From Bacteroidales bacterium (GTDB lineage Bacteria; Bacteroidota; Bacteroidia; Bacteroidales; Muribaculaceae): a DNA stretch of 32,648 bases. Where the stretch lies: positions 1 to 32,648 of the forward strand of contig JAAVFK010000013.1 in NCBI GenBank assembly GCA_014800785.1, read 5' to 3'. The position numbers and the translations under genes were made by a program. Below the pieces are notes generated by a model. It was not told the origin of the DNA and did not search any database. It worked only from the letters and a program-made list of their open reading frames with translations. Of the stretch, positions 2,733 through 31,814 are shown piece after piece. Each line of letters begins with the position of its first letter. The first letter of the stretch is position 1.

Positions 2733-3785
2733 ATGTTCGGATTAACTCATTTTCAGACACTATATTTTAAGTTTAAAGTTATCAGAATCCTTAATCGGTT
2801 TAAAGGTAATTCTAAGCTATCTCTAAATATTAATACCGAGAAAAAGAAGTGTTTCATCTTTCTTGCTGCTGATTATGGTAATCTTGGAGACGTTGCCATT
2901 ACTTACGCACAGAAAAAATTCTTACAAGAGAATTATCCGGATTATGAGGTTGTAGAAATTCCGATTGCACAGACTCTTCATTTGATGGATAAAGTGAAGA
3001 GAATTGCGACTAAAGATGATATCATCACAACCATTGGAGGCGGCAATATGGGAGACATGTATGGAGACATTGAGCTTCTTCGATTAATGGTAGTAGATCT
3101 ATTCCGAGATCATAGAATCATATGCTTTCCGCAAACAATAGATTATAGTGAGTCAGAAGAAGCCGAATATCTAATGCGATTATCTTGTAAAATTTATTCT
3201 CAAGCAACTAATGTAACAATGTGTGCCAGAGAAAATATTTCCTATAAAACAATGATTGAGCTATATCCTACCATTAAAGTTCTCCTTACACCAGATATAG
3301 TAATGGGATTGGATACTAACATCAAAGAATGTAGAGACAATATAGTGACTCTATGTCTGAGAAAAGACAAAGAAAAGAAAGACAATTCTCTCTATGTTGA
3401 AAAATTAATGTCAGAAATAGATAATTTCCATTTAAGTGTACAAATGTATGATACACATATTGGTGGAGCAAGATACACAGAGGAACAAAAATACTTTGAG
3501 TTAGATAAAATATTAAAGCAATTCAGTAAAAGTAAAATAGTAATTACTGACAGATTGCATGGAATGATATTTGCATATATCACCGGTACTCCTGCGGTGG
3601 TTTTACCTAACTCCAATTTTAAAGTTCGAGCATGTTATGAATGGATCAAGAATTGTGGCCATATTAAATTCTATGACGAAATAGAAGAGGGAGGCATAAT
3701 GAATATGATTATGAGATGTAACACCTCCTTTTTAGCGCATCGTCATCAGTCTTTAATTCAATCAAAACTCAAGTCTATAATATGA
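2733..3785 (+). CDS. polysaccharide pyruvyl transferase family protein (ExoV/CsaB-like)
   Basis: FLAADYGNLGDVAITYAQKKFL, GGGNMGDMYGD, TDRLHGMIFAYITGTPAVVLPN. Confidence 0.9.
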   Translation: MFGLTHFQTLYFKFKVIRILNRFKGNSKLSLNINTEKKKCFIFLAADYGNLGDVAITYAQKKFLQENYPDYEVVEIPIAQTLHLMDKVKRIATKDDIITTIGGGNMGDMYGDIELLRLMVVDLFRDHRIICFPQTIDYSESEEAEYLMRLSCKIYSQATNVTMCARENISYKTMIELYPTIKVLLTPDIVMGLDTNIKECRDNIVTLCLRKDKEKKDNSLYVEKLMSEIDNFHLSVQMYDTHIGGARYTEEQKYFELDKILKQFSKSKIVITDRLHGMIFAYITGTPAVVLPNSNFKVRACYEWIKNCGHIKFYDEIEEGGIMNMIMRCNTSFLAHRHQSLIQSKLKSII

Positions 3786-4909
3786 AGAAGACTAAATTAC
3801 TGTTCCTTCATTTCGATCTCGGTAATGGTGGAGCGGAAAATGTTTTAGTGAACTTACTTAATCGTTTGGATAAAACCAAGTATGATATCACTCTTCGAAC
3901 GGTCTTTTCTGGAGGTGTCAATCGCGAACGGTTAAGTAAAGATGTGAATTTCAAGGCACTATTCCCACGCAAAGCATTTCCGGGAACGTCGCATATTTTT
4001 AAATTTATACCCAACTTCATTCTTGAAAAACTTTTTGTTTCTGGAGAATTCGATTATCAAATTGCATTTTTGGAGGAAATCCCTACGAGAATTTTAGGAG
4101 TAAGCAAAAAGAGACAAAATTGTAAACGTTATGCGTGGTATCACAACACCGTAGATTCTCACATGTATTCTTTCCATTCATTCAGAAGTGAAAAAGAATT
4201 CTTTAGAGTATATTCTAATATTGACAAGATAGCATTTGTATCGGCAGGGGCTCTTCAATCGTTCGAAAACAACTTTAAAATAGATACGCCTAAGGAAGTT
4301 GTTTATAACGTATGTGACTTTGAGAAGATCAAAGAAGCTTCAAAATCCGAGATAGACATTAAACTGTCCAAAAATGTGTTGAATTTATGTAGCGTCGGTC
4401 GATTGACAGGTCAAAAGGGATATCATAGATTGATTAAAGCCTTGGGAAAAATCAATCAAGAAGGCGTTGATAATTGGCACTTGTATTTGATTGGGGATGG
4501 TCCGGAGAAACAAAATTTAGAATCACTGATAGAACGATTTGGACTCAGTAACATGGTTACGTTATTAGGATTTAAATCCAATCCTCACAGCTATGTTGCT
4601 AAAATGGATTTTTTTGTCTGTTCCTCTTATAAGGAAGGATACAGTACTGCTGTAACTGAGTCCATTGTTTTAGGTACACCAGTTCTTACTACAAGATGTT
4701 CAGGTATGGAAGAAATATTCGGTGATTCTAATTGTGGATTAATTGTGGATAATACCCAAGAATCTCTTGAAAAAGGGCTACATCAAATTTTGAAATATTC
4801 AAAAGAAGATGTTAGTCGGATTAAGCAAAATGCAGTTGTGCGTTCAGGTGATTTTTCCACTGACTCAAGAGTTATAATGTTTGAGAAATTCATTGGTACC
4901 TATGAGTAA
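3782..4909 (+). CDS. glycosyltransferase family 4
   Basis: LGNGGAENVLVNLLNRL, VGRLTGQKGYHRLIKAL, CSSYKEGYSTAVTESIVLGTPVLTT; start overlaps the upstream stop (ATGA). Confidence 0.92.
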   Translation: MKKTKLLFLHFDLGNGGAENVLVNLLNRLDKTKYDITLRTVFSGGVNRERLSKDVNFKALFPRKAFPGTSHIFKFIPNFILEKLFVSGEFDYQIAFLEEIPTRILGVSKKRQNCKRYAWYHNTVDSHMYSFHSFRSEKEFFRVYSNIDKIAFVSAGALQSFENNFKIDTPKEVVYNVCDFEKIKEASKSEIDIKLSKNVLNLCSVGRLTGQKGYHRLIKALGKINQEGVDNWHLYLIGDGPEKQNLESLIERFGLSNMVTLLGFKSNPHSYVAKMDFFVCSSYKEGYSTAVTESIVLGTPVLTTRCSGMEEIFGDSNCGLIVDNTQESLEKGLHQILKYSKEDVSRIKQNAVVRSGDFSTDSRVIMFEKFIGTYE

Positions 4910-5906
4910 TGGTCCTCTAATATCAATAGTGATGCCTATGTATAATGTAGAAACATTTATTGGGCAGGCTATTGAAAGTATTCTAAGTCAGTCAATTTCT
5001 GAATGGGAATTGATCATAGTTAATGATGGCTCTAAAGATTCAAGTCTCGATATAGCAAAAAGATATGTTTCCAAAGATTGTCGTATAAGGATTCTTAATA
5101 AACAAAATGGAGGTCTCTCAGATGCAAGGAATTATGGTTTAGAAGCAACTGAGGGCCAATACGTTCATTTTTTCGATTCTGACGATTGGGTATCTTCAGA
5201 TTTTTATGAACAAATGTTAGATAGTATTCCTCCACAAAGTGATCCAGATATAATCATAGGAGGATATGTAGTTGAGACTTTTGACAATAAGAAACATTGG
5301 TCAACAGAACGACGCCCAAATACAGATATACAAGACCCTAAGGAACTCTCCAATCTTTTATCCGGATTTCTGAATTTTGCATGGAATAAATTATTTAAAA
5401 GAGAATTCCTCATAGAACATAAATTGACCTACGAGAAAGGATTGAAACTCATTGAAGATTGTGAGTTTATGTCTAGGGTAGTTGATTATAATCCTAAAAT
5501 AAAGTATTCTCAAGCAATTGGATATCATTATAGGAATGATAATAGACCCACCTTAAGCAAATTTTTTGACAATTCTCTCATCGAATTAAGTGAGAGAAGA
5601 ATAAAGTCAAGTAGAAAGATTCTGAGTTTCATTCATACGCAAAAATCATTTATCGAACAGTCACTTAATATTGTTAGGATTAATACTATTAGATTTTTGA
5701 TTCATTCTCTATTCGCGTTTACTCACAATATCCCTATTTGGAAGAAATATGAGACAATCAAGAGAATTCTCGGAACTACAGAACTGAAGATCACGAAACA
5801 GGTAAATGGGTTAACATCCGTTAGTGATAGAATAACAAGTTTGTTGATAACTCACAGAGCTACCTTACTTCTAACGATATTATATTTTGCCAAGGAACGG
5901 AAATGA
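4902..5906 (+). CDS. glycosyltransferase family 2
   Basis: PLISIVMPMYNVETFIGQAIESILSQS...LIIVNDGSKDSS...NGGLSDARNYGL...FFDSDDW; start chosen at ATG 4902, overlapping the upstream stop. Confidence 0.92.
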   Translation: MSNGPLISIVMPMYNVETFIGQAIESILSQSISEWELIIVNDGSKDSSLDIAKRYVSKDCRIRILNKQNGGLSDARNYGLEATEGQYVHFFDSDDWVSSDFYEQMLDSIPPQSDPDIIIGGYVVETFDNKKHWSTERRPNTDIQDPKELSNLLSGFLNFAWNKLFKREFLIEHKLTYEKGLKLIEDCEFMSRVVDYNPKIKYSQAIGYHYRNDNRPTLSKFFDNSLIELSERRIKSSRKILSFIHTQKSFIEQSLNIVRINTIRFLIHSLFAFTHNIPIWKKYETIKRILGTTELKITKQVNGLTSVSDRITSLLITHRATLLLTILYFAKERK

Positions 5907-7036
5907 TTGAGATATCTACCATTAATATCGTTCGTATTGCGATAATTTCAATCATGGTTTTGTTTTATACCGCAATTCCAGATTCTACTCTACTTAACGA
6001 TAAAAGAAATATTCAAGTTTCTACACTCAGTAGTATAGTAACCATTTCTATCGGAGTTCTATTCATTTACCTTTTTGGTCTAAGAAATTATATAAGTACT
6101 GATTCCGGAGACTCCTTTCTATATGCGTATGCCTATCAACATATTGAAACAATCGTAGGACCTACTTTTGATGATGCATTAAAATCAAGAGAATGGGCGT
6201 GGGCAACACTTCTCCTTTTCTTATATCAACATCATATAGATGTAAGCGGATTTTTTACAATTGTTTCCGTATTGTATATGGTCCCTATATTGTATGGGTG
6301 TATTAAGTTAGGAAAAAGTAATTCTTGGATATTACTCTTAGCATTCCTGTTAGGTATAACTTTTATGTCTAATGGCATGAATGGAATCAGAAATGGTGTT
6401 GCTTGTAGCATTGCGTTCTTGGGACTTCTACAGATTACTGATCATAGTAAGCTCAAATTAAGTAATTTTTTATCTGCTGTAGCCCTGTGTTTAATTGCGC
6501 ATGGTATTCATGGAGCAAGTGTAATACTTATTATACCTGCATTTATAGTTTTATTCTTTATTAAAAGTTATAAAACTGCACTTATATTATGGTTGTCTGC
6601 AATTGTTCTCAGCCTTATTTTTGGAAATAGAATTGCCTTTTTAGTAGCAGACTTCGACGCCTCTGAGCGGGCTCTTTCCTATCTTCAGGGAGGTGAGAGT
6701 GAAAGTAATATGGCAAAATTTGCTCATAGTGGCTTCAGATTAGATTTTCTTCTCTATTCCGCTATACCAATAGTAGTTGGATACTATATCTCAATAGTTA
6801 AAAAAATTCATGATCGTAGATATAATATTTTATTATTCACGTATATGTTAGCTAACGCTGTATGGATTATTTTTATATATGCCGCATATTCAAATAGGTT
6901 CGCAATGATTAGCTGGTATTTGTTCCCTCTTACGATAATATACCCCTTTATTAGCATATCACAACTTGGAGATTTTCGAATACGTCTTTCTAAAATATCA
7001 ATAGTTGGATTGTTTATTTTCTTCTTCGTCTTATAA
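5903..7036 (+). CDS. EpsG-family / O-antigen polymerase-like membrane protein
   Basis: Multi-TM protein; FGLRNYISTDSGDSFLYAYAYQ and NGIRNGVACSIAFLGL / AHGIHGASVILI layout typical of EpsG; ATGA overlap with the upstream gene. Confidence 0.8.
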   Translation: MIEISTINIVRIAIISIMVLFYTAIPDSTLLNDKRNIQVSTLSSIVTISIGVLFIYLFGLRNYISTDSGDSFLYAYAYQHIETIVGPTFDDALKSREWAWATLLLFLYQHHIDVSGFFTIVSVLYMVPILYGCIKLGKSNSWILLLAFLLGITFMSNGMNGIRNGVACSIAFLGLLQITDHSKLKLSNFLSAVALCLIAHGIHGASVILIIPAFIVLFFIKSYKTALILWLSAIVLSLIFGNRIAFLVADFDASERALSYLQGGESESNMAKFAHSGFRLDFLLYSAIPIVVGYYISIVKKIHDRRYNILLFTYMLANAVWIIFIYAAYSNRFAMISWYLFPLTIIYPFISISQLGDFRIRLSKISIVGLFIFFFVL

Positions 7037-7059
7037 AGAAGTTATAAGTACATCTTAAT

Positions 7060-7968
7060 ATGCTTTTAACAATTTTTACTCCTGCTTATAACCGTGCGCA
7101 TACCATTGGGCGAACTTACGAGAGTCTTTTGCGCCAAACGTGTAAAGATTTTGAATGGTTGGTTATTGATGACGGCTCTACAGACAACACCGAAGAACTG
7201 GTGCGTGGATGGATCAAAGAGAATAAGATTTCTATTCGCTACATCAAACAGAAGAATCAAGGTATGCACGGTGCGCATAACACCGCTTACCATAACATCA
7301 CAACCGAGCTCAATACCTGTATTGATTCGGATGACTATATGCCCGATGATGCCGTTGAGAAGATTGTCAGTCTTTGGAAAGAGAAAGGATCGGATAATTA
7401 TGGTGGCATTATAGGTCTTGATTGCATGGAAAATGGGGATATTATCGGAACAAAATTCTCTGAGGATCTCAAGGAGACAACCTTGACAGGTATCTATGCT
7501 GCCGGAGGATCAGGAGATAAGAAACAGGTATATCGCACAGATGCAATAAACAGCTATCCTGATTATCCTATTTTTGAGGGAGAAAAATATGTTGGATTAG
7601 CTTATAAGTATATCCTCCTGGATCAGGACTACAAACTTCTAACAATTAATTCACCGTTGGTTGTTGTAGATTACCAACAAGATGGATCGAGCTATAATAT
7701 GTATAATCAATATTGGAAAAATCCGAAGGGCTTTTCTTTCTTTAGAAGAACAGAGATGGTATACGCACCATCCTTAAAGCGCACATTTATTTCCTGTATT
7801 CATTACGTTGCGAGTTCGATAATTGCTAAAGATAAGAACTTCCTGAAAGAATCGCCAAAAAAGCTAATGACAATATTAGCTATTCCTTTCGGTATTGCCT
7901 GGTACTATCGAATCAAATCGAAAGTCAAGGCAGGTGGCAAGATGAATTTTAAAAGAAATAATCATTGA
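7060..7968 (+). CDS. glycosyltransferase family 2
   Basis: LTIFTPAYNRAHTIGRTYESLLRQT...WLVIDDGSTDNT...GMHGAHNTAY...CIDSDDYMPD. Confidence 0.92.
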   Translation: MLLTIFTPAYNRAHTIGRTYESLLRQTCKDFEWLVIDDGSTDNTEELVRGWIKENKISIRYIKQKNQGMHGAHNTAYHNITTELNTCIDSDDYMPDDAVEKIVSLWKEKGSDNYGGIIGLDCMENGDIIGTKFSEDLKETTLTGIYAAGGSGDKKQVYRTDAINSYPDYPIFEGEKYVGLAYKYILLDQDYKLLTINSPLVVVDYQQDGSSYNMYNQYWKNPKGFSFFRRTEMVYAPSLKRTFISCIHYVASSIIAKDKNFLKESPKKLMTILAIPFGIAWYYRIKSKVKAGGKMNFKRNNH

Positions 7969-10305: not shown

Positions 10306-11634
10306 ATGCAAATAGTATTATTATCTGGCGGATCTGGAAAACGTCTTTGGCCTTTATCTAATGGTATCCGATCAAAACAATTCCTGAAGGTATTAAGAGC
10401 ACCATCGGGAGAATTGGAATCAATGGTGCAAAGAGTTTATCGACAGATTAGAGAAGCCGGCATTAATGCGCAAGTCACAGTTGCTACATCAGCAAATCAA
10501 AAAGATTCCATAATATCACAGTTAGATGATAAAGTTGATATTGTTACTGAGCCAGAAAGACGAGATACTTTCCCTGCAATTGCTCTTTGTGTAACATATC
10601 TGAACAAGGTAAAGCACATTGATCCGGACGAAACTATAATCGTAATGCCGTGTGATGTGTTCGCAGACAGCAGTTATTTCGATAAAATATCCCAGATGGC
10701 TAAGGAGGTAGAATCTAATAAAAGCGATTTAGTCTTAATGGGAATTGTACCAACATATCCATCTTCTAAGTTTGGTTATATTATGCCTAATCGCCTAAAT
10801 CCAGGAAAGATTGATGGATTTATGGAAAAACCTACTCTTGAACTTGCAAAAGAATTAATCCAAAATGGTGCGGTCTGGAACGGTGGTGTATTTGGGTTTA
10901 AGTTAGGCTATCTTATCGATAAAATTACTAAATATTTCAATGCTCAGACATTTGATGAATTCATACATCGATACGTGGAACTCCCTAAGATAAGTTTTGA
11001 CTATGAGATTGTAGAAAAAACTTCTAATTTAAGCGGTGTATATTATAAAGGAAGATGGAAAGATCTGGGAACTTGGAATGCTCTGAGTGAAGAGCTTTCT
11101 TCATGTAAAATCGGAAATGTTATTCAGTCAGAATGCTTGGGAACCACAACGATCAATGAATTGAGTATTCCTATTTTATGCCAAGGGACAAATAATCTAA
11201 TCGTGGCAGCTTCTCCGGACGGTATATTAGTTGCGGATAAATCTAAATCGGAAGATATTAAGGATGGAGTAAACGCCATCAATTCACGTCCTATGTACGA
11301 AGAAAGAAGATGGGGTTCATATAAAGTAATCGATAATGTAGAATTTAAGGATGGCTTCTGCGCTTTGACAAAACAGTTAACGCTCAATCTGGGATGTTCA
11401 ATTAGTTATCAAAGACATTCGTATAGAGATGAGGTATGGACATTTATAGATGGGTCAGGAGAAATTGTCATTGATGAGAAGAGATCCCTTGTCAAGCGAG
11501 GAGATGTAATTATTATTTCAAGAGGTACCCTACATGCACTTAGAGCTGTAACTTCATTAACATTCATTGAAGTACAGCGAGGGGAAAATCTTGTAGAAGA
11601 AGATATCGAAAGATTTGAATATAACTGGGGATGA
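10306..11634 (+). CDS. manC: mannose-1-phosphate guanylyltransferase-like, fused to a C-terminal cupin (ManC/CpsB type)
   Basis: IVLLSGGSGKRLWPLSN, FMEKP, VWNGGVFGFK, C-terminal EERRWGSYKVID..QRHSYRDEVWTFIDGSGEIVID. Confidence 0.85.
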   Translation: MQIVLLSGGSGKRLWPLSNGIRSKQFLKVLRAPSGELESMVQRVYRQIREAGINAQVTVATSANQKDSIISQLDDKVDIVTEPERRDTFPAIALCVTYLNKVKHIDPDETIIVMPCDVFADSSYFDKISQMAKEVESNKSDLVLMGIVPTYPSSKFGYIMPNRLNPGKIDGFMEKPTLELAKELIQNGAVWNGGVFGFKLGYLIDKITKYFNAQTFDEFIHRYVELPKISFDYEIVEKTSNLSGVYYKGRWKDLGTWNALSEELSSCKIGNVIQSECLGTTTINELSIPILCQGTNNLIVAASPDGILVADKSKSEDIKDGVNAINSRPMYEERRWGSYKVIDNVEFKDGFCALTKQLTLNLGCSISYQRHSYRDEVWTFIDGSGEIVIDEKRSLVKRGDVIIISRGTLHALRAVTSLTFIEVQRGENLVEEDIERFEYNWG

Positions 11635-11674
11635 GTATAGGGTAATTTAAGTAGATCATGCGTCTGATAATCGA

Positions 11675-11887
11675 TTGGTATTGTGTCTAAGTATGCTCAA
11701 AGATATTTTTCTAAAGTTGAGAAATATTAAAACGCTTGCCCAAAATATCCTGGATTTAGAGAAAGATTCTGTTACCTATGCTGAGGTGGCAGACAGATGT
11801 GCAAAGCGGGCTGGAGACTTCGATATCTCCAAAATGGTCGATGGGTACGTTAACGTTTATAACTCATTGAATGAGAAAGACCACTAA
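11675..11887 (+). pseudogene. GT4 glycosyltransferase C-terminal fragment
   Basis: RCAKRAGDFDISKMVDGYVNVYNSL parallels the C-terminus of the 7976..9070 GT4 (RCVARAQNYDISKMVDAYIKEYN); no N-terminal or catalytic domain. Confidence 0.65.
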
Positions 11888-12490
11888 AATAATACGGACA
11901 ACAACATTCCCCACTTCATTGAATACATTTTGTCGTGGGCTTCTGAGAGAATTGGAAGAGCAGGATGGATATGAGATTGTGGCTGTCAGTTCACACGGTA
12001 AGGATCTTGAGAAGATTGCGGAGCGCGAGGATGTGAGAACTATAGCTGTTCCGATGCACCGCCAGATTTCTCCACTCAATGATCTCAAGAGTTTATGGGG
12101 TCTGATCAAGGTATTCCGCAAGGAAAAGCCGACAATGGTTCATTCGATGACACCGAAGGCCGGATTGCTGTCAATGATGGCGGCTTGTGTGTGTCGCGTG
12201 CCGGTACGTCTCCATACCTTTACCGGTCTGGTATTTCCTACCTCAACTGGCCTTAAGCAGAAGATTCTGATCTTCACAGACCGCCTGACCTGTGTATGCG
12301 CCACCCATATCGTCCCCGAGGGTGAGGGAGTGAAGAACGACCTCATCAATTACAAGAATCTTTATCGGCCGTCTTGTCAGAGACAAGGGGATAAATGAGC
12401 TGGTCGAGGCTTTCAAACGGCTCAATGAGAAGTATCCCGACACATGTCTGATTCTTATAGGATCGTAGGAACGGGAACTTGATCCGCTGA
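11871..12490 (+). pseudogene. GT4 glycosyltransferase (PglA-like), internal deletion plus stops
   Basis: Homologous to 16500..17696; NDLINY then jumps out of frame to IGRLVRDKGINELVEAFKRLNEKYPDTCLILIG followed by in-frame stops; about 131 bp missing relative to the intact copy. Confidence 0.85.
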
Positions 12491-12525: not shown

Positions 12526-13191
12526 ATGTACGCAAGATATATAAAACGCTTTCTTGATATTACAATCTCTTTCTGCGGGCTTTTAGTTATCTCCCCGCTC
12601 TTACTTACTCTATGCTTTCTTGTTAGGTCGAAGCTTGGGAGTCCTATATTCTTCCGACAACAACGCATTGGGAAAGACGAAAAGCCTTTCATGATGATAA
12701 AATTCAGGACAATGACTGATGCGCGAGATAAGGATGGCAAGCTACTTCCAGATACCGAAAGATTTACTAAGTTCGGTAATTTTTTAAGAAATTCCAGTCT
12801 TGACGAACTTCCCGAACTTTTCAATGTGATTAAGGGAGATATGTCTCTCGTTGGACCACGTCCACTTTATCCCATCTACCTTCCCTATTATACCGAAGAG
12901 GAAGCTAAGCGCCACAAGGTAAGAGGGGGAATAACAGGATTGGCTCAGATAAATGGACGTGCGCTTTGCCGGTGGAAAGAGAGATTCAGCTATGATGTAA
13001 AATATGTTGACGAGCTATCTTTCAAGAATGATGTAAAAATTCTTTGGAGAACATTCTTTAAAGTTGCTGCTAAAGAAGATATTGGAACACCATCAGTAAC
13101 AGATGAGGGAGGACTACATATTATCCGAGAAATTCAACGTCCTGATTTAGTTGAAAAAGTGAAGAATATGAATTGCAGAAGCAATATTTAA
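12526..13191 (+). CDS. initiating bacterial sugar transferase (PglC/WcaJ-like phosphoglycosyl transferase)
   Basis: RFLDITISFCGLLVISPLL...KPFMMIKFRTMTDARDKDGKLLPDTERFTKFGNFLRNSSLDELPELFNVIKGDMSLVGPRPL. Confidence 0.95.
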   Translation: MYARYIKRFLDITISFCGLLVISPLLLTLCFLVRSKLGSPIFFRQQRIGKDEKPFMMIKFRTMTDARDKDGKLLPDTERFTKFGNFLRNSSLDELPELFNVIKGDMSLVGPRPLYPIYLPYYTEEEAKRHKVRGGITGLAQINGRALCRWKERFSYDVKYVDELSFKNDVKILWRTFFKVAAKEDIGTPSVTDEGGLHIIREIQRPDLVEKVKNMNCRSNI

Positions 13192-16499: not shown

Positions 16500-17696
16500 A
16501 TGGTTCAAAAATTTGAAATAAATAAAAATATCGAAATTATGAGTCGTCTAAAGCCAAAGATAATTAGAGCTTGTACTGTCCCAAATTCTATAGGATTTGT
16601 AACAGGTATGATACCGGAACTTTTGGAAAAATTTGAAGTAGGAGTTTTAGCCTCACCCGGTAAGTATTGGGAAGCATTAGATAAGTATGGAAATGAGGTA
16701 AAACGATTAAAAGTAGCCATGGAAAGACAAATTTCACCATGGAAAGACTGTATAAGTCTTTGGAAACTAATTCGAATTTTTCATAAGGAACGACCGGATA
16801 TAGTACACTCGATGACCCCAAAGGCCGGATTACTTTGTATGATAGCTGCTTGGCTAAATCGTGTACCTATAAGAATCCATACCTTTACCGGGCTGGTATT
16901 TCCAACCTCGACCGGCCTTAAGCAGAAGATCCTGATCTTCACCGACCGTCTTACCTGCGCATGCGCCACCCATATTGTCCCCGAGGGTGAGGGAGTAAAG
17001 AACGATCTCATCAATTACAATATCACGAAGAAACCCCTGAAAGTACTGGGCTACGGCAACGTACAAGGCATAGATCTGAACCGCTTCAATCCAGAACTGC
17101 CCGAAGTAAAAGCCGAAGCCGGGAAGATCCGCAAAGAAGATGTCTTCACTTTCGTCTTTATCGGACGTCTTGTGGGAGACAAAGGAATCAACGAATTGGT
17201 CTCAGCGTTCACGCGCTTGAACCAAAAATACCCGGATACTCGACTGATTCTTGTTGGGAGATATGAGTCAAGACTTGATCCCTTGCAGGTTGAAACAGAA
17301 GAAGAGATCAAAAATAACCAAGCAATATGGGCGTCGGGTGAAACTCCAGATGTACGCCCTTGGCTTTTGGCCTCAGACACCCTTGTCTTTCCGAGTTATC
17401 GAGAGGGTTTTCCGAATGTGGTGATAGAGGCCGGGGCTATGGGGTTGCCCTCTATTGTCACAGACATTAATGGCTCGCGCGAGATCATTATTGAGGGTGA
17501 GAATGGAACCATCATCCCATCAAAAAATACACAGGCACTTGAAGAGGCGATGGAGCGAATGATTGTGGATAAACATTCAACTGAGTTCATGGCTTCCAAA
17601 GCTCGACAGATGATCGCGGAAAGATTTGAACAGCACTATGTCCGCAAGTGCCTGAAGGAGTACTACGAAGAAATTCTTAACTCTCGTAAGAAATGA
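16500..17696 (+). CDS. glycosyltransferase family 4 (PglA-like), intact paralogue of the 11871 pseudogene
   Basis: HSMTPKAGLLCMIAAW...HTFTGLVFPTSTGLKQKILIFTDRL...FIGRLVGDKGINELVSAF...PSYREGFPNVVIEAGAMGLPSI. Confidence 0.93.
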   Translation: MVQKFEINKNIEIMSRLKPKIIRACTVPNSIGFVTGMIPELLEKFEVGVLASPGKYWEALDKYGNEVKRLKVAMERQISPWKDCISLWKLIRIFHKERPDIVHSMTPKAGLLCMIAAWLNRVPIRIHTFTGLVFPTSTGLKQKILIFTDRLTCACATHIVPEGEGVKNDLINYNITKKPLKVLGYGNVQGIDLNRFNPELPEVKAEAGKIRKEDVFTFVFIGRLVGDKGINELVSAFTRLNQKYPDTRLILVGRYESRLDPLQVETEEEIKNNQAIWASGETPDVRPWLLASDTLVFPSYREGFPNVVIEAGAMGLPSIVTDINGSREIIIEGENGTIIPSKNTQALEEAMERMIVDKHSTEFMASKARQMIAERFEQHYVRKCLKEYYEEILNSRKK

Positions 17697-18310
17697 AACC
17701 ATACAGAGATTTTTTCAAACGCATTATTGACGTGACGGCTTCGGGCTGAGCATTAATAGTATTATCTATACCTTTGGTTATTGTTTCCATTTGGTTTTAT
17801 TATGCCAATAATGGGGCCGGGATCTTCTTCTCTCAGGAACGACCCGAAAAAGACGGAAAGATATTCCGGATTTGGAAGTTCATGTCAATGACAGATGAAC
17901 GCGATAGTAACGGAGAATTGCTTCCTAACGAACAGAGAATTACTACGGCGGGTAGATTTATTCGGAATGCCTCAATAGATTGGTTGCCCCAACTATGGAA
18001 CGTGTTGAAAGGAGATATGTCTCTTATTGAGTCACGTCCATTGCCCATACGCTATCTGGAATTGTACAATGCCCGTCAGGAACGACGTCACGAAGTCAGA
18101 CCTGGGATATCAGGATGGGCATAGGTAAACGGTCGCAATAAGATATCTTGGGGTCAGAAAATTGAGTATGATTTCTTTTATATTGATCATCTGAATTTCA
18201 AATTTGACCTAAAGATCCTATTCATGGCAATTAAAAAAGTTTTTGCCGGTTCGGATATCGATGCCGGTGTCAATAAAATAGGAGGAATTGGTTTTAATGG
18301 ACACAAGTGA
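17693..18310 (+). pseudogene. second initiating sugar transferase, frameshifted near its 5' end and with an in-frame TAG
   Basis: PYRDFFKRIIDVTASG (one frame) then IPLVIVSIWF..GIFFSQERPEKDGKIFRIWKFMSMTDERDSNGELLPNEQRITTAGRFIRNASIDWLPQLWNVLKGDMSLIESRPLP..GWA*VNGRNKISW..; TAG at 18122-18124. Confidence 0.88.
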
Positions 18311-23289: not shown

Positions 23290-23686
23290 TAAGACCCCAC
23301 CCCGCAAGAAATGTTAAAGCCAGGGCGGTGTATTTTCGAGGGAATTTCGTTTATCTCGGAGGGAGTGATGTGAGCATTGCTTCATATTGAGTTGTTTTTA
23401 TAGGTATTCAGCGATTTCCAATTGTGACCGGAGAGATAGACGAAATTCATCGGAAAGGCACCGGGCAAAGAATTCTTTTATATAGGAATGGTAGCAGGAA
23501 GTTAAAAAATCAATAAATGTCCCTCAGCAGCAAGAGATGAAATATTACCACTAGACCGCAGATGTGCCCCGCCTTCGGCCTTTTGGTTCAGTCGCATAGC
23601 CCGCTATGCTCCTTCACACTGCAAGGCCAAATTCGGGGCACATCTGCGACCCTGGCTTTAATATTTATTGTGGGATGGGGTCTTAG
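23290..23686. repeat. 37-bp inverted repeats (23290-23326 / 23650-23686) bounding a non-coding segment
   Basis: taagaccccaccccgcaagaaatgttaaagccagggc versus the reverse complement of accctggctttaatatttattgtgggatggggtctta, 5 mismatches in 37 by hand count; a diverged third copy starts near 22731. Confidence 0.8.
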
Positions 23687-23810
23687 TCAAGAACACTACT
23701 GCGGAGAGTGGGACAGCGAAGAAGACTTCGCCCGGCATATTATCGAGGAGTGCTACAATCTTGAATTGGAAATCGCTGAATACCTATTGCATAAACTCAA
23801 TATGAAGCAA
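23377..23810. repeat. 47-bp inverted repeat pair (23377-23423 / 23764-23810) interleaved with the pair above
   Basis: aattggaaatcgctgaatacctat-[6]-aactcaatatgaagcaa on opposite strands, 42/47 identical by hand count. Confidence 0.85.
23557..23648. repeat. 92-bp cruciform-forming palindrome
   Basis: 15-bp perfect arms CGCAGATGTGCCCCG (23557-23571) / CGGGGCACATCTGCG (23634-23648), inner GGCC-containing arms and an apical GCATAGC-CC-GCTATGC hairpin. Confidence 0.85.
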
Positions 23811-23950
23811 AAGATGATGGGTAGCCTCGCCAACTACTTCGACTATGAAGCGTTCTTGCTGTGCAAGCGACAAGTCGATAACGGACGCGCTTCATGTGGG
23901 ACTACAACATGGGAGCGAACGGTCACGTATTCCGCCGAATCTGACCCTCA
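23689..23950 (+). pseudogene. ardA: ArdA-family antirestriction protein, 5'-truncated, interrupted and frameshifted
   Basis: YCGEWDSEEDFARHIIEECYNLE...MGSLANYFDYEAF then, in another frame, RTRFMWDYNMGANGHVFRRI*. Confidence 0.7.
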
Positions 23951-24025
23951 GACCACTCCAAAAAATGGGCTTTTGGCTAGGTCAAGCCTCGCCGAGCTAA
24001 AGGTTCCGAAAGGGAAGGCTCTTTT

Positions 24026-24622
24026 TTAGAATGTATTATTTACAATATTATGGTACTCTATTTTAGCCTTGTCGTTGGCAGCCACATCTCGATAACTTAA
24101 TTCAACTAATCCACCATTCCCTCTTGGGGCACAAGATATTCTTACTTCACCAATGACTTTATTACTTGCGTTTTTTATATAATAATACAACGCAAACATT
24201 TCTTTAAATTTATTGGACCCATCATGAATATAACCTAAATCCGACTTATTCTCTTCACGATGTCCTCCATATTTTTCTTCCAATACTTTAACAAGAAGCA
24301 TTACATTTCCCTGTAAATCGGAAGAATGGGAATGTGTGCAAATCGTTCTAAATACGGTATTCGTTTCCCGGGATGAAAATGCCCAAAAATACCATTTTTC
24401 TGAATTTATGAAAGTGCTACCCCAATATCCGTTACAAATGTCTGAATTATAAATTTCATCTGACTTACTCCTGTAATATTTAGAATCCTCTCCCTTACAA
24501 AAATCTTTCATAAAAGTGGCTACATTCGTTCCAAAGGTGGCACCACTAAAACGAATATTATTTTGTGCATATATCGTAGCAAACGATATAAGGCACACTA
24601 TTATTAATAGTATTTTCTTCAT
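24026..24622 (-). CDS. small secreted hypothetical protein
   Basis: Signal peptide MKKILLIIVCLISFATIYAQ; upstream minus-strand TATCTTTG -7-like box (24654-24661). Confidence 0.7.
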   Translation of the reverse strand: MKKILLIIVCLISFATIYAQNNIRFSGATFGTNVATFMKDFCKGEDSKYYRSKSDEIYNSDICNGYWGSTFINSEKWYFWAFSSRETNTVFRTICTHSHSSDLQGNVMLLVKVLEEKYGGHREENKSDLGYIHDGSNKFKEMFALYYYIKNASNKVIGEVRISCAPRGNGGLVELSYRDVAANDKAKIEYHNIVNNTF

Positions 24623-24737: not shown

Positions 24738-25802
24738 ATGCCTAATATCGCTTACAACATATCGCTTAAAGGCTAAGTCGGAGGCATGGACTTCGACCGC
24801 TCAAAGGTTGACAAGGAACTTGTCAAAAACGATGACAAGGAGGTAAATGTGCTGATCGACAGACTCGGCGGTTCTCTTGCAACCGATCTGTCTATCTCCG
24901 TCGCTTTCCGCAATCACGGCGATGTTGCCGTGCATTTTGTCGGACTAAATGCTTCTGCCGCCACAATCGCTTCACTCGGTGCGGCTCACATCTCCATTGA
25001 CCGCGGCGGAATGTATCTCGTCCATAAGTGCTCCACCGCCTTCTTCGAGTGGGGCACTATCAACAGCGACCCGTTCGATACTCTCATTGCCGACTGAGAG
25101 AAGATTAAGGCTGACCTTGACAAGCTCGACCTTAATGTAGCCCAACTCTATGCCGCCAAGTGCCGCAAATCGGTGACGAATCTGCTCGCACTTATGAAAG
25201 TCGGCGGTTGGCTAACCGCTAAGGAAGCTCTCGACTGGGGCTTCGTGGACGAGATTACTGACCTTGCCGACGAACAGGCTCCAAAACTCACAGACGCTAT
25301 CGCTTCCGCTATGGCTAATGCCGGTATGCCGATACCGAACATTTCCATATCCGACTCCGAGAAGGAGTCGGCGTTAAGCAAGTCCCTCGCCGAACTCACT
25401 TCGTTCTTTCGACCTAATTCACCCACCGTTTCCAATACCATTCAGACCATCATGCACAAGACCTAAAAATTCTTGTCGGCTATCCTTGCCGACAAGCCCC
25501 TAGCCGTGACCGACGGCAAAGCCTCCGTGACCGAGGCTCAGCTTGACTCCATCGAAGCTCCTCTCGCCGATAAAGACAGAATCGCCAATGAAAGGCAGCA
25601 GAAGATTGACGCTCACGAAGCGACAATCCGCGAGAAGGATGCGACTATCGCTGACCTTCAGGCGAAACTCGCCAAGAAACCTGCCGAAGAATCAAAGCAG
25701 GTCGTTGACAGCGGCTCGAAAGGCGAGTCCGCCGACAAGACCGAGACTGAGATTTACTGCGATACAGTCAACTCCGCCCGAAAACTCTTCAACGAGGTTT
25801 AA
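24738..25802 (+). pseudogene. prophage ClpP/SppA-like head maturation protease with in-frame stops
   Basis: One frame throughout: NIAYNISLKG*VGGMDFDRSKVDKELVKNDDKEVNVLIDRLGGSLATDLSISVAFRNHGDVAVHFVGLNASAATIASLGAAHISIDRGGMYLVHKCS...KVGGWLTAKEALDWGFVDEITD...; stops at 24774, 25095 and 25464. Confidence 0.85.
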
Positions 25803-27327: not shown

Positions 27328-27359
27328 ATTGTGTATTCGAACTAAAATAGCTAATTTTG
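27328..27359 (+). promoter_or_regulatory. Bacteroidetes-type promoter for the 27459 operon
   Basis: ATTG (27328-27331) - 20 bp - TAATTTTG (27352-27359); consensus TTTG-N19-21-TAnnTTTG. Confidence 0.6.
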
Positions 27360-27370
27360 CGTTTCAAAAC

Positions 27371-27441
27371 AAAGCACTTCACCCTCTAAGCTCTCTGGGG
27401 CAGTGAGTGCTTTAACCAATAAATAAGTCTTACAAGAGAGC
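27371..27441 (+). promoter_or_regulatory. structured 5' leader with H-type pseudoknot potential
   Basis: AAAGCACT (27371-27378) / AGTGCTTT (27406-27413) stem; loop GCTCTCT (27390-27396) complementary to AGAGAGC (27435-27441) just 5' of the ribosome-binding region. Confidence 0.45.
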
Positions 27442-27458
27442 GAACAAGGAGAACGCCT

Positions 27459-28118
27459 ATGTGCAACAGCCCAAGTACTCTCGACCGCTATAGGGAAGAG
27501 TTACAGAGATGTGCCTCTGGACATTTGTCTGCGCGAATCACCAACAAAAATGAGGATTATGCGGCAGCCTTTTACGGTGAATTATTTAGAAACACAGAGA
27601 CTACTGCAAAGATTTTCTGTGAGGGAGCACATTCGTGCATATGGCGCAATTTTGAGTTCCAAACAGCTTTTGAGGAGTTACTAAATAAGTCCAGAGTTCA
27701 TATTTGGGTCTTAACAGAGGAGAATGAAAGGAATTTAGATCGATTCCCAGAGTACCTTCAGAAGGTAATTAGGGATAAATCTTCACATATCGAGTTTCGA
27801 CACCTAACCACAAAGGCACGAGAAATTATTACTTCTCGTTTTGAGGACGATGTAAATTTTGCCGTCTTTGACAATGATAAGTTTAGATTCGAATTTGATA
27901 AAACTCATTATACTGCGTACGGATCTTTCAATGATCCGGATATAGTGAAGGAGATAAATAAATATTTCGATGAGGCTTTTGAGACGTCAGAAGTAACAGA
28001 GTTTAATTTACCGAATTCATCATTTGACGTTGCCATTAACAGTGCAGAATATAGGTATATAGGTGATGGATCGGAAAGTACTACTATTACCTCGGACACT
28101 ACTCACATATCAAGATAA
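27459..28118 (+). CDS. uncharacterised soluble protein, faint phospholipase-D-like layout
   Basis: 219 aa, FAVFDNDKFRFEFDKTHYTAYGSFNDPDIVKEINKYFDEAFE; no confident family. Confidence 0.75.
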   Translation: MCNSPSTLDRYREELQRCASGHLSARITNKNEDYAAAFYGELFRNTETTAKIFCEGAHSCIWRNFEFQTAFEELLNKSRVHIWVLTEENERNLDRFPEYLQKVIRDKSSHIEFRHLTTKAREIITSRFEDDVNFAVFDNDKFRFEFDKTHYTAYGSFNDPDIVKEINKYFDEAFETSEVTEFNLPNSSFDVAINSAEYRYIGDGSESTTITSDTTHISR

Positions 28119-28120
28119 AA

Positions 28121-29131
28121 TTGAGTTCAAATTTGGAACAGATAACATGCTTAACTCCATATGCTCCCGTTATTCAACTAATAGCGGGAGTATATTTAAT
28201 CTTTTTCTATCAAACGGTATTTGATGAAAAATTCTTAGACGGTAGTATTCAAAAGAAACTTATCAGTAATTTAAATCAGGTTCTAAGAACAGGAGGAGAA
28301 TATATATCGGAAAAGACATTTAATTCTGATATAGAAAAATTTTATACATGGTGGGAGAGATATACTAATAGCGTGAAAGCTGTTGCGAGGATGGGAGGAG
28401 TATATGGCATTACCCTTTTAATATATTGTGGCATAGAGGGATTTGAGAAAAAATTAGGTCTAGAGGCTGTCTTAGTAGACTCCATTATTTATGCTGTATA
28501 TGCGTTAATAGTAGTGTTTGTGGCAAGAAAAGGCTGGTTGTGTAATTCTAAGACATGGGTATTAGGTGCTTTTATATATGGCGCAATAGGATATATTTTT
28601 CCTCCGCAAGATTCAATCGCTTTTGCAAATGGAGTATGGGGCTTAACACTAACCCAAGCATTACAAACAATTGTTTGGATTGCTCCATTAGGGATAATAT
28701 TGGCAATATGTAGGTATCAGTTTGATGAGTGGCATTACGATCATACAAATAAATGCTTTAATAGGACAACGAAAATTCAAAATGATTTTTCAAATATTCG
28801 AATGACTATTATTACAACGGGTAATAATATGGATAAGGCAATGTCGATGTTTTATGAGGAATACGGGGATTTGTTGGAGATGCAAAAATGGAAATATGAA
28901 AAGCAAAATGAGACAAGAGATAGAAGAGAGTGGGGTGAAATTTTTGCGATATATTACAGAGATAGATACAAATATTGGGTTTCTCCAATACATAAAAAAA
29001 TAATTTACCAAGTTATCCACTCTCCAAGAAAAATCTGTTATTGGAGAGCCCATTTCCCATGTCATTTTAGTATGTGTGTCGTATTGATTTGCTTGGGAAT
29101 ATTCTGTTGGTTGGTATCTTACTTTTACTGA
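28121..29131 (+). CDS. uncharacterised membrane protein (about 6 predicted TM segments by eye)
   Basis: TTG start 2 bp after the upstream stop; hydrophobic segments VIQLIAGVYLIFFYQ, YGITLLIYCGI, IIYAVYALIVVFVA, WVLGAFIYGAIGYIF, IVWIAPLGIILAI, MCVVLICLGIFCWLVSYFY. Confidence 0.75.
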   Translation: MSSNLEQITCLTPYAPVIQLIAGVYLIFFYQTVFDEKFLDGSIQKKLISNLNQVLRTGGEYISEKTFNSDIEKFYTWWERYTNSVKAVARMGGVYGITLLIYCGIEGFEKKLGLEAVLVDSIIYAVYALIVVFVARKGWLCNSKTWVLGAFIYGAIGYIFPPQDSIAFANGVWGLTLTQALQTIVWIAPLGIILAICRYQFDEWHYDHTNKCFNRTTKIQNDFSNIRMTIITTGNNMDKAMSMFYEEYGDLLEMQKWKYEKQNETRDRREWGEIFAIYYRDRYKYWVSPIHKKIIYQVIHSPRKICYWRAHFPCHFSMCVVLICLGIFCWLVSYFY

Positions 29132-29183
29132 TAATATAATATATAAAGAAGTTATTTTATGATAGGAAAGTTAAGCACCATAC

Positions 29184-29330
29184 ATGAGCATGTTGATACT
29201 TACTATTTTTCATTTAATTGATTTACTGAGTAATCCTATACAGGAAACATTAGATCCAGTGACAGTTAAATTTCTGTACGCAGCACTCTATTCTACTCTC
29301 CGTATGCTTATTAATATAAGATTTGAATGA
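29184..29330 (+). CDS. possible 48-aa hydrophobic small ORF downstream of the membrane gene
   Basis: MSMLILTIFHLIDLLSNPIQETLDPVTVKFLYAALYSTLRMLINIRFE*; no clear RBS. Confidence 0.3.
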   Translation: MSMLILTIFHLIDLLSNPIQETLDPVTVKFLYAALYSTLRMLINIRFE

Positions 29331-30154: not shown

Positions 30155-30892
30155 ATGGCGTATTGGATATTACCATGGAATAAAGAGATTTTCAACTTGC
30201 CCCAATGTTTAATAGACTTCGGGTTTGTTGAATGGCGACAGCGAAATAACCTCGCTGTCGGAGACATTGTTTTCATATACTGCTCTAATCCATTAAGGCA
30301 AATTAAGTATATGATGAAAGTGTCTAAAATCAATATTCCTCGAAATGAAACTGTCAATGATCAGTACCTTTTCGGGTATGAGTATAACTTAAAGCCTACG
30401 GACTATTATGCCCGCTTTGAGCCTATCGCTGAAACAACCGATAGCAATACTAAACTATCGTTGTCCTCGCTACGTGAGTTTGGTATAACATCAAATTTTC
30501 AAGGAGGTATAAAAGTCCCTTACAACATCTTACAATGGCTCTTAGATTGCTTTGATGTTGTATTCGATGACTTATCACAAATATTCTACGAACAATCATT
30601 CAGTTACCTCATATGAGAGAAACCAGCAAGCAAGAGAAAAATGCTTATCGTATTTTGGCTATTCATGTCAAATATGCGGCATAAATTTTGAGAAGGTATA
30701 TGGAGAAATTGGCAAAGGATTTATTCATGTTCACCATGTAGATTTTATTTCTTCTTTTGACGGTGCAGCACACGAAATAAACCCTTGCGAAGAACAGATT
30801 CCTGTTTGTCCTAATTGTCATGCAAGCTCCATCGGAAGCTGAACGGTAAATATTTAACACCTGATGAATTGAAAAATATCGTACAACAATGA
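30155..30892 (+). pseudogene. EVE(PUA-like)-HNH endonuclease, two frameshifts
   Basis: EVE-like MAYWILPWNKEIF..WRQRNNLAVGDIVFIYCSNPLRQIKYMMKV; HNH SYFGYSCQICGINFEKVYGEIGKGFIHVHHVDFISSFDGAAHEINPCEEQIPVCPNCHA then, in another frame, LHRKLNGKYLTPDELKNIVQQ*. Confidence 0.8.
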
Positions 30893-31037: not shown

Positions 31038-31814
31038 ATGCGCATCATCAGTTGGAATATAAATGGTATCAAGGCGCACTTCGATGCCCTTAAAGACCTC
31101 GTAACTCGTTATGAACCGGACATCTTGTGTCTCCAAAAGGTAAAATCTTCAAAAGGGATAGAAGCCTTTCCTTTGGAGGGCTATGAATCATTTGATATTT
31201 CCACTTATCGATCTCGGTATAACGGAGTCGGCACTTATTATCGGAACATTGATTTTCCGTTGATGAACTTCCCAAACAACCTTGCGGCGGAAGGGCATTT
31301 TCAGGCTCTCCGTATAAGACCGCAAATGCATGTTCTCTTCAATATTTATGCTCCTTTCAGCTGTCTGAGAGACCTGAAATATAGTGAGGCGCGCAGGAAA
31401 TGGGATGATCTGTTATTCCTTTTTGCAAAGGATGTATCGTCATATACGCTCCTTATCATGTGTGGCGATTTCAACGTGGTGAACCAGTCATACGACACAT
31501 GGACCCGCAACTGCAATCATGACAAGCCTTGTTACTACTCATGGGAGCGTGCCAATTTCGGCAAATTACTTCAGCAGTGGGACCTTGTGGATGCATTCCG
31601 GCAACTGCATCCCCAGGAGATGAAGTTTACATACTTCGACAGTAAGGGGGATGACCGAGCCTCCAATCAAGGCGACAGCATAGACTATTTTCTCATCAGC
31701 CGTTCCTTAATGCCATACATAACCCGCTGCGATATCATCGATAATATAACCGCCTCCAACAGCAATCCGATCCTTGACTGCAGCGTTGCGGTGCCGTCGC
31801 CGGCCAATCGTTAA
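31038..31814 (+). CDS. exodeoxyribonuclease III (Xth)-family homologue with substituted catalytic residues
   Basis: MRIISWNINGIKAHFDALKDLVTRYEPDILCLQKVK...CGDFNVVNQSYD...QGDSIDYFLISRSL...ASNSNPILDCSV. Confidence 0.88.
   Translation: MRIISWNINGIKAHFDALKDLVTRYEPDILCLQKVKSSKGIEAFPLEGYESFDISTYRSRYNGVGTYYRNIDFPLMNFPNNLAAEGHFQALRIRPQMHVLFNIYAPFSCLRDLKYSEARRKWDDLLFLFAKDVSSYTLLIMCGDFNVVNQSYDTWTRNCNHDKPCYYSWERANFGKLLQQWDLVDAFRQLHPQEMKFTYFDSKGDDRASNQGDSIDYFLISRSLMPYITRCDIIDNITASNSNPILDCSVAVPSPANR

Follow-up and report, generated by a model that had tools for sequence, protein, structure and literature searches.

The question raised by this locus is whether two adjoining open reading frames, which lie intact among partly broken accessory genes of a Bacteroidales bacterium, form a genetic system of their own and, if so, what kind of system they encode. 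The two genes, here called A and B, were analysed in a window of 32,648 nucleotides (the whole stretch of DNA that was examined), for which an initial annotation had proposed an undescribed defence or membrane-stress operon.

Both reading frames were confirmed as annotated, an intact gene for a soluble protein followed by an intact gene for a membrane protein, with a 2-base gap between the stop of A and the start of B (Table 1). The TTG start of B fits because B homologues open with the same N-terminal segment. The promoter-like box noted earlier corresponds to the Bacteroides −33/−7 pattern, and this pattern was also matched in full 5′ of A in related loci L012, L013, L023, L024, L025, L029 and L030, at variable distance. 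Two other annotated elements fall outside the system and should be dropped. The supposedly structured leader (27365–27470) folds at z = −0.69, within the range of shuffled sequences, gave no match in an Rfam search, and was rejected as a structured element; the 48-aa hydrophobic ORF (29184–29330) had no homologue in any related locus and no Pfam match, and was rejected as a third component since it has no counterpart in those loci.

Table 1. Positions of the A–B gene pair and associated features in the window.
Feature	Position	Strand	Description and basis
Promoter-like element, Bacteroides type TTG-N20-TAATTTTG (−33/−7 pattern)	27329–27359	+	Consensus match only
Shine-Dalgarno-like AAGGAG	27447–27452	+	6 nt 5′ of the gene A ATG; direct sequence reading
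Gene A	27459–28118	+	Intact ORF, ATG start; 219 aa, soluble
Pseudo-active-site region of A, residues 131–158	27849–27932	+	Alignments
Gene B	28121–29131	+	Intact ORF, TTG start; 336-aa membrane protein, 5–6 TM predicted
Hairpin, 16 pairs, in first TM codons of B	28159–28195	+	Folding and comparison across B genes

The genes on either side had been described as broken. This was found for a prophage head-maturation protease, which lies in two pieces (24786–25097 and 25173–25466), for an ArdA antirestriction protein remnant (23562–24029) and for an HNH ORF (30552–30842) that is out of frame with 30155–30616; an Exo_endo_phos protein (31038–31814) is near full length, so the neighbours are not uniformly broken, and the EVE and GIY-YIG labels of the initial annotation had no Pfam match in the window. 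Upstream of the pair, positions 1–20 kb were read by us from the proteins as a polysaccharide glycosyltransferase cluster. By the same reading, a glycosyltransferase occurs twice in this cluster (11871–12398 and 16500–17696, sharing near-identical stretches), as does an initiating sugar transferase (12526–13191 and 17774–18124), and one copy of each duplicated gene is truncated.

The operon is a real, conserved gene pair. In 18 of 18 loci, ranging from Bacteroidales to distant Bacteroidota classes, a B-type multi-TM gene was found directly 3′ of A, with spacings from overlapping ORFs up to a gap of ~40 nt, and neither gene turned up without the other; the co-occurrence that the initial annotation had named as a check was thus seen everywhere the genes were found. 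A B profile searched against 198 genomes matched only in A-bearing genomes, with the limit that it misses the distant B of genome G127. Used as single queries against 200 relatives, B recovered three other congeneric genomes and A the same three and one more distant genome. Comparison by hhalign joined the Bacteroidales and distant A subfamilies into one family (E 1.1e-30) and, over the N-terminal part, the Bacteroidales and distant B subfamilies (Prob 94.6, E 6.6e-8) into another; the closest homologue is only ~36% identical. The B gene of G393 is divided between two ORFs, and the G782 pair straddles a contig break. No homologues with a housekeeping role, which had been named earlier as evidence against the idea, turned up.

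The distribution of the pair is rare and patchy. With A profiles, members were found across the order, across the phylum including other classes, and in a related order, and searches of the classes of G809 and G782 yielded no further members. A scan of named genomes gave members in Phocaeicola and Bacteroides caecigallinarum; further hosts were Heminiphilus faecis and Prevotellaceae/Muribaculaceae MAGs. The frequency was ~1–2% of sampled genomes (5/200, 7/393, 2/249 and, after removal of two false matches, 6/396). Loci L040 and L041 were discarded as members, their frames being read as glycosyltransferases. No A–B homologue was found in plasmids (72,556 records), phages or viral contigs.

Protein A was modelled with AlphaFold2 (pLDDT 78.6, pTM 0.74), residues 1–180 being confident and folded and residues 187–219 of low confidence, and is confidently predicted to have a PLD/TrmB-type fold, as a lone PLD-like domain with one helix before it. 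Foldseek against the PDB placed TrmBL2 first (5bpi, E 1.9e-7), followed by the poxvirus F13 protein, phosphatidylserine synthase (PssA), BJ-TSA-9, the TrmB sugar-binding domain (2f5t, E 7e-5) and Nuc (1BYR); the probability for PLD-fold proteins was 1.00, TM-scores were moderate (~0.5 on the query), so the likeness is one of fold level, and a viral structure library returned distant PLD-fold proteins only. TrmBL2, the TrmB sugar-binding domain and BJ-TSA-9 among these top matches are non-catalytic binding domains. A resembles the archaeal TrmB/TrmBL2 regulators in its non-catalytic, effector-binding PLD-like domain and differs from them in its membrane partner, in an identity of 11–15% and in lacking the N-terminal winged HTH DNA-binding domain, for which reason A was rejected as a TrmB regulator. 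With the HKD phospholipase D/Nuc superfamily it shares the predicted fold and, in Bacteroidales members, a GSxN-like motif, whereas the catalytic HxK is lost and the spacing departs from HxKx4Dx6GSxxN: the HKD lysine (position 133) is replaced in all A members by N, H, F or Y (N in the window), and 17 rather than 7 residues separate D138 from the GSxN-like motif. Because the catalytic lysine is missing in every member, A is probably a binding pseudo-enzyme and not a catalyst, and with the HKD motif lost it was rejected as an active nuclease or lipase. Residues D138, R143, E145 and A153 are invariant in the alignments, a pattern that would suit a binding pocket evolved out of a former active site. 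The sole recurring Pfam match of A is DUF7931 (PF25559), which runs weakly along most of the protein, the best score being 19.5 bits and all A members tested falling below the gathering cut-off of 27 bits. A metabolic fold had been named at the outset as an outcome that would speak against a special role; the fold predicted for A is that of a PLD/TrmB-type domain without catalytic function, not that of a metabolic enzyme.

Protein B had been annotated with six TM helices. Hydropathy prediction gave five in the window protein (11–29, 87–105, 116–134, 179–197 and 314–332) and an additional one near residues 140–158 in most relatives, so that five to six is a fair description. The first TM is conserved as [FY]-A-P-[LV]-I-Q-L-x-A-G (FAPLIQLWAG type), and a GIE motif follows TM2. 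Searches of B against Pfam, NCBIfam, PADLOC and PHROGs gave no meaningful match. An AlphaFold2 model of the Prevotellaceae member L031 was all-helical and poor (pLDDT 60.7), and a structure search with this low-confidence model gave no significant match. The earlier statement that neither protein matches a nameable family therefore stands for B; A has only the sub-cut-off DUF7931 match, together with its predicted PLD/TrmB fold.

A hairpin in the codons at the start of B is kept in Bacteroidales beyond what synonymous codon choice would lead one to expect. Across nine Bacteroidales B genes, which are partly close relatives and represent about five independent lineages, its mean z was −2.8 against shuffles keeping protein and codon usage (individual values −1.1 to −5.2); the next best of 143 positions, overlapping windows aside, reached −0.74, the positions scattering with an sd of 0.54. 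Pair counting gave 88.9% of cells paired, with two pairs changed on both sides, and covariation exceeded that of shuffles modestly only. The hairpin lies at the same codons in L012, L022, L023, L029 and L030, that of the window is offset by one register, and distant B genes mostly lack it. It is terminator-like because a T-rich stretch of B codons follows it on the 3′ side, and a possible role is that of an attenuator by which B is held to a lower level than A. This conserved hairpin within a coding sequence is a separate regulatory feature that can be tested directly.

Genomic context was assessed with PADLOC on neighbours within ~6 kb and, in addition, in G782. The pair is surrounded by a TIR-type Aga, a pAgo and a type IIG RM system in L046 (G809), lies beside a Pycsar system with PycC (cyclase) and PycTM in L047 (G782), is directly followed by Menshen NsnB/NsnC in L029 (Phocaeicola), shares its locus with a ThsA-like SIR2 protein and an integrase in L044 (G769), and is near PDC-M56A/B in L024 (G338). 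An integrase-like ORF adjoins the pair in L025 and L044, and L066 carries phage-like genes and a caspase-like ORF. Named or candidate defence systems were present at 5/18 pair loci and 0/26 control stretches from the same genomes (one-sided Fisher ~0.008, calculated by hand, with a criterion set post hoc). The 26 controls gave single PADLOC matches (RtcR, PycTM-like, mad3, PDC-S13, PDC-S01), strong single matches were not much more numerous in the pair loci than in the controls, and 13/18 loci had no system nearby that PADLOC recognised within ~6 kb; in L010, L013 and L022 the pair lies among polysaccharide or housekeeping genes. The enrichment near defence genes for which the initial annotation called is hence seen by the strict criterion and is weak by raw PADLOC matches, and because that criterion was chosen after the data were seen the defence association of the pair is graded as suggestive.

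Several genes near the pair were recorded in their own right. Peptidoglycan transglycosylase-like ORFs lie close to it in two unrelated genomes (L024:9113–9688 and L043:8900–10411; no PADLOC match), the former adjoining a nucleotidyltransferase-like ORF. In L012, tandem ORFs of 519, 199 and 536 aa (3023–6819; no PADLOC match), the first two read as PLD-like, occur near the pair, as do a 5-TM ORF (6931–7968) and a GHKL-like ATPase ORF (10346–12196). The caspase-like ORF of L066 (G1120; 1885–2673, own reading) lies in a phage- or element-like stretch 3–4 kb from the pair.

Kiwa (KwaA membrane and KwaB soluble) and Pycsar (cyclase and PycTM) combine a soluble partner with a membrane component. 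The A–B pair is comparable to them in manner of working only. It encodes no nucleotide cyclase; window A and B match no model of PADLOC-DB 2.0.0 (E ≤ 1), including, for B, the TM effectors of Pycsar and CBASS (PycTM, 2TM), and the Pycsar beside the L047 pair is a separate system. No description of the pair and no paper on DUF7931 was found in the literature covered, which left out most preprints and subscription papers.

We favour, with about even confidence, the view that A and B form an obligate two-part accessory signalling module with a role in defence or conflict, A being the sensor and B the membrane effector. This view fits best because it accommodates the strict pairing of a sensor-like domain, itself non-catalytic, with a membrane protein, the sporadic distribution and the recurrent defence or mobile-element neighbours. 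A would be a cytosolic PLD/TrmB-fold pseudo-enzyme whose former active site, now remodelled, binds a ligand or a partner, and B a multi-TM protein kept inactive or triggered by A; on sensing of an invader- or damage-derived signal by A, B would act by altering membrane permeability or integrity, and growth or infection would be halted, with the hairpin as a possible attenuator holding B below A. Physical interaction of A and B, sensing by A, the membrane effect of B and the defence purpose are all inferred. A bolder version, in which a dead PLD/TrmB sensor gates a multi-TM effector throughout the phylum as an immune module of Bacteroidota, with B restrained by an intragenic attenuator hairpin in its first-TM codons, is offered tentatively and is rather doubtful. 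For the original proposal of an undescribed defence or membrane-stress system, the pairing, the non-metabolic fold and several defence-adjacent copies speak in favour, while the enrichment is clear only post hoc and the B model is poor.

Much of the same evidence is shared by a toxin–antitoxin or mobile-element maintenance pair, in which B would be a membrane toxin, A an antitoxin that binds B, and phage protection secondary. The bicistronic, antitoxin-first order with its tight coupling, the patchy occurrence and mobile-element neighbours, and an attenuator-like hairpin that could limit B all suit such a pair; we nevertheless regard it as possible rather than probable, as the size and degree of structure of A would be unusual in an antitoxin, its conserved residues (D138, R143, E145) cluster at a pocket and not just at an interaction surface, and the plasmid records searched lack the pair. 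Unlikely, in our judgement, is an accessory module for envelope stress or lipid sensing that has nothing to do with phage, with A binding lipid or phosphate head groups in a PLD/PssA-like pocket and B acting as a transporter or regulator: in its favour, A resembles phosphatidylserine synthase and PLDs in structure and the pair has ordinary chromosomal contexts in L010, L013 and L022, whereas an occurrence in 1–2% of genomes across the phylum is unlike envelope housekeeping and B matches no transporter family. A catalytic role for A, as a nuclease or phosphodiesterase brought to the membrane by B, is very improbable, for although A has a PLD fold, Nuc is among its structural matches and a histidine stands at motif position 131 in L027–L030, no member keeps the motif lysine and the GSxN-like motif lies at an altered distance from D138. 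That two unrelated frames lie open side by side in decaying DNA merely by chance, as the broken neighbours might suggest, is already refuted by the conservation of both families, in unchanged order, across 18 genomes.

For the sensor–effector module, confirmation would yield a defined pair of families, B being un-annotated in the four collections searched, and a testable question, the ligand of the A pocket. If this reading is true, gut and environmental Bacteroidota would carry a two-gene module with a new type of sensor, a non-catalytic PLD/TrmB domain, that sometimes lies in neighbourhoods with known defence genes.
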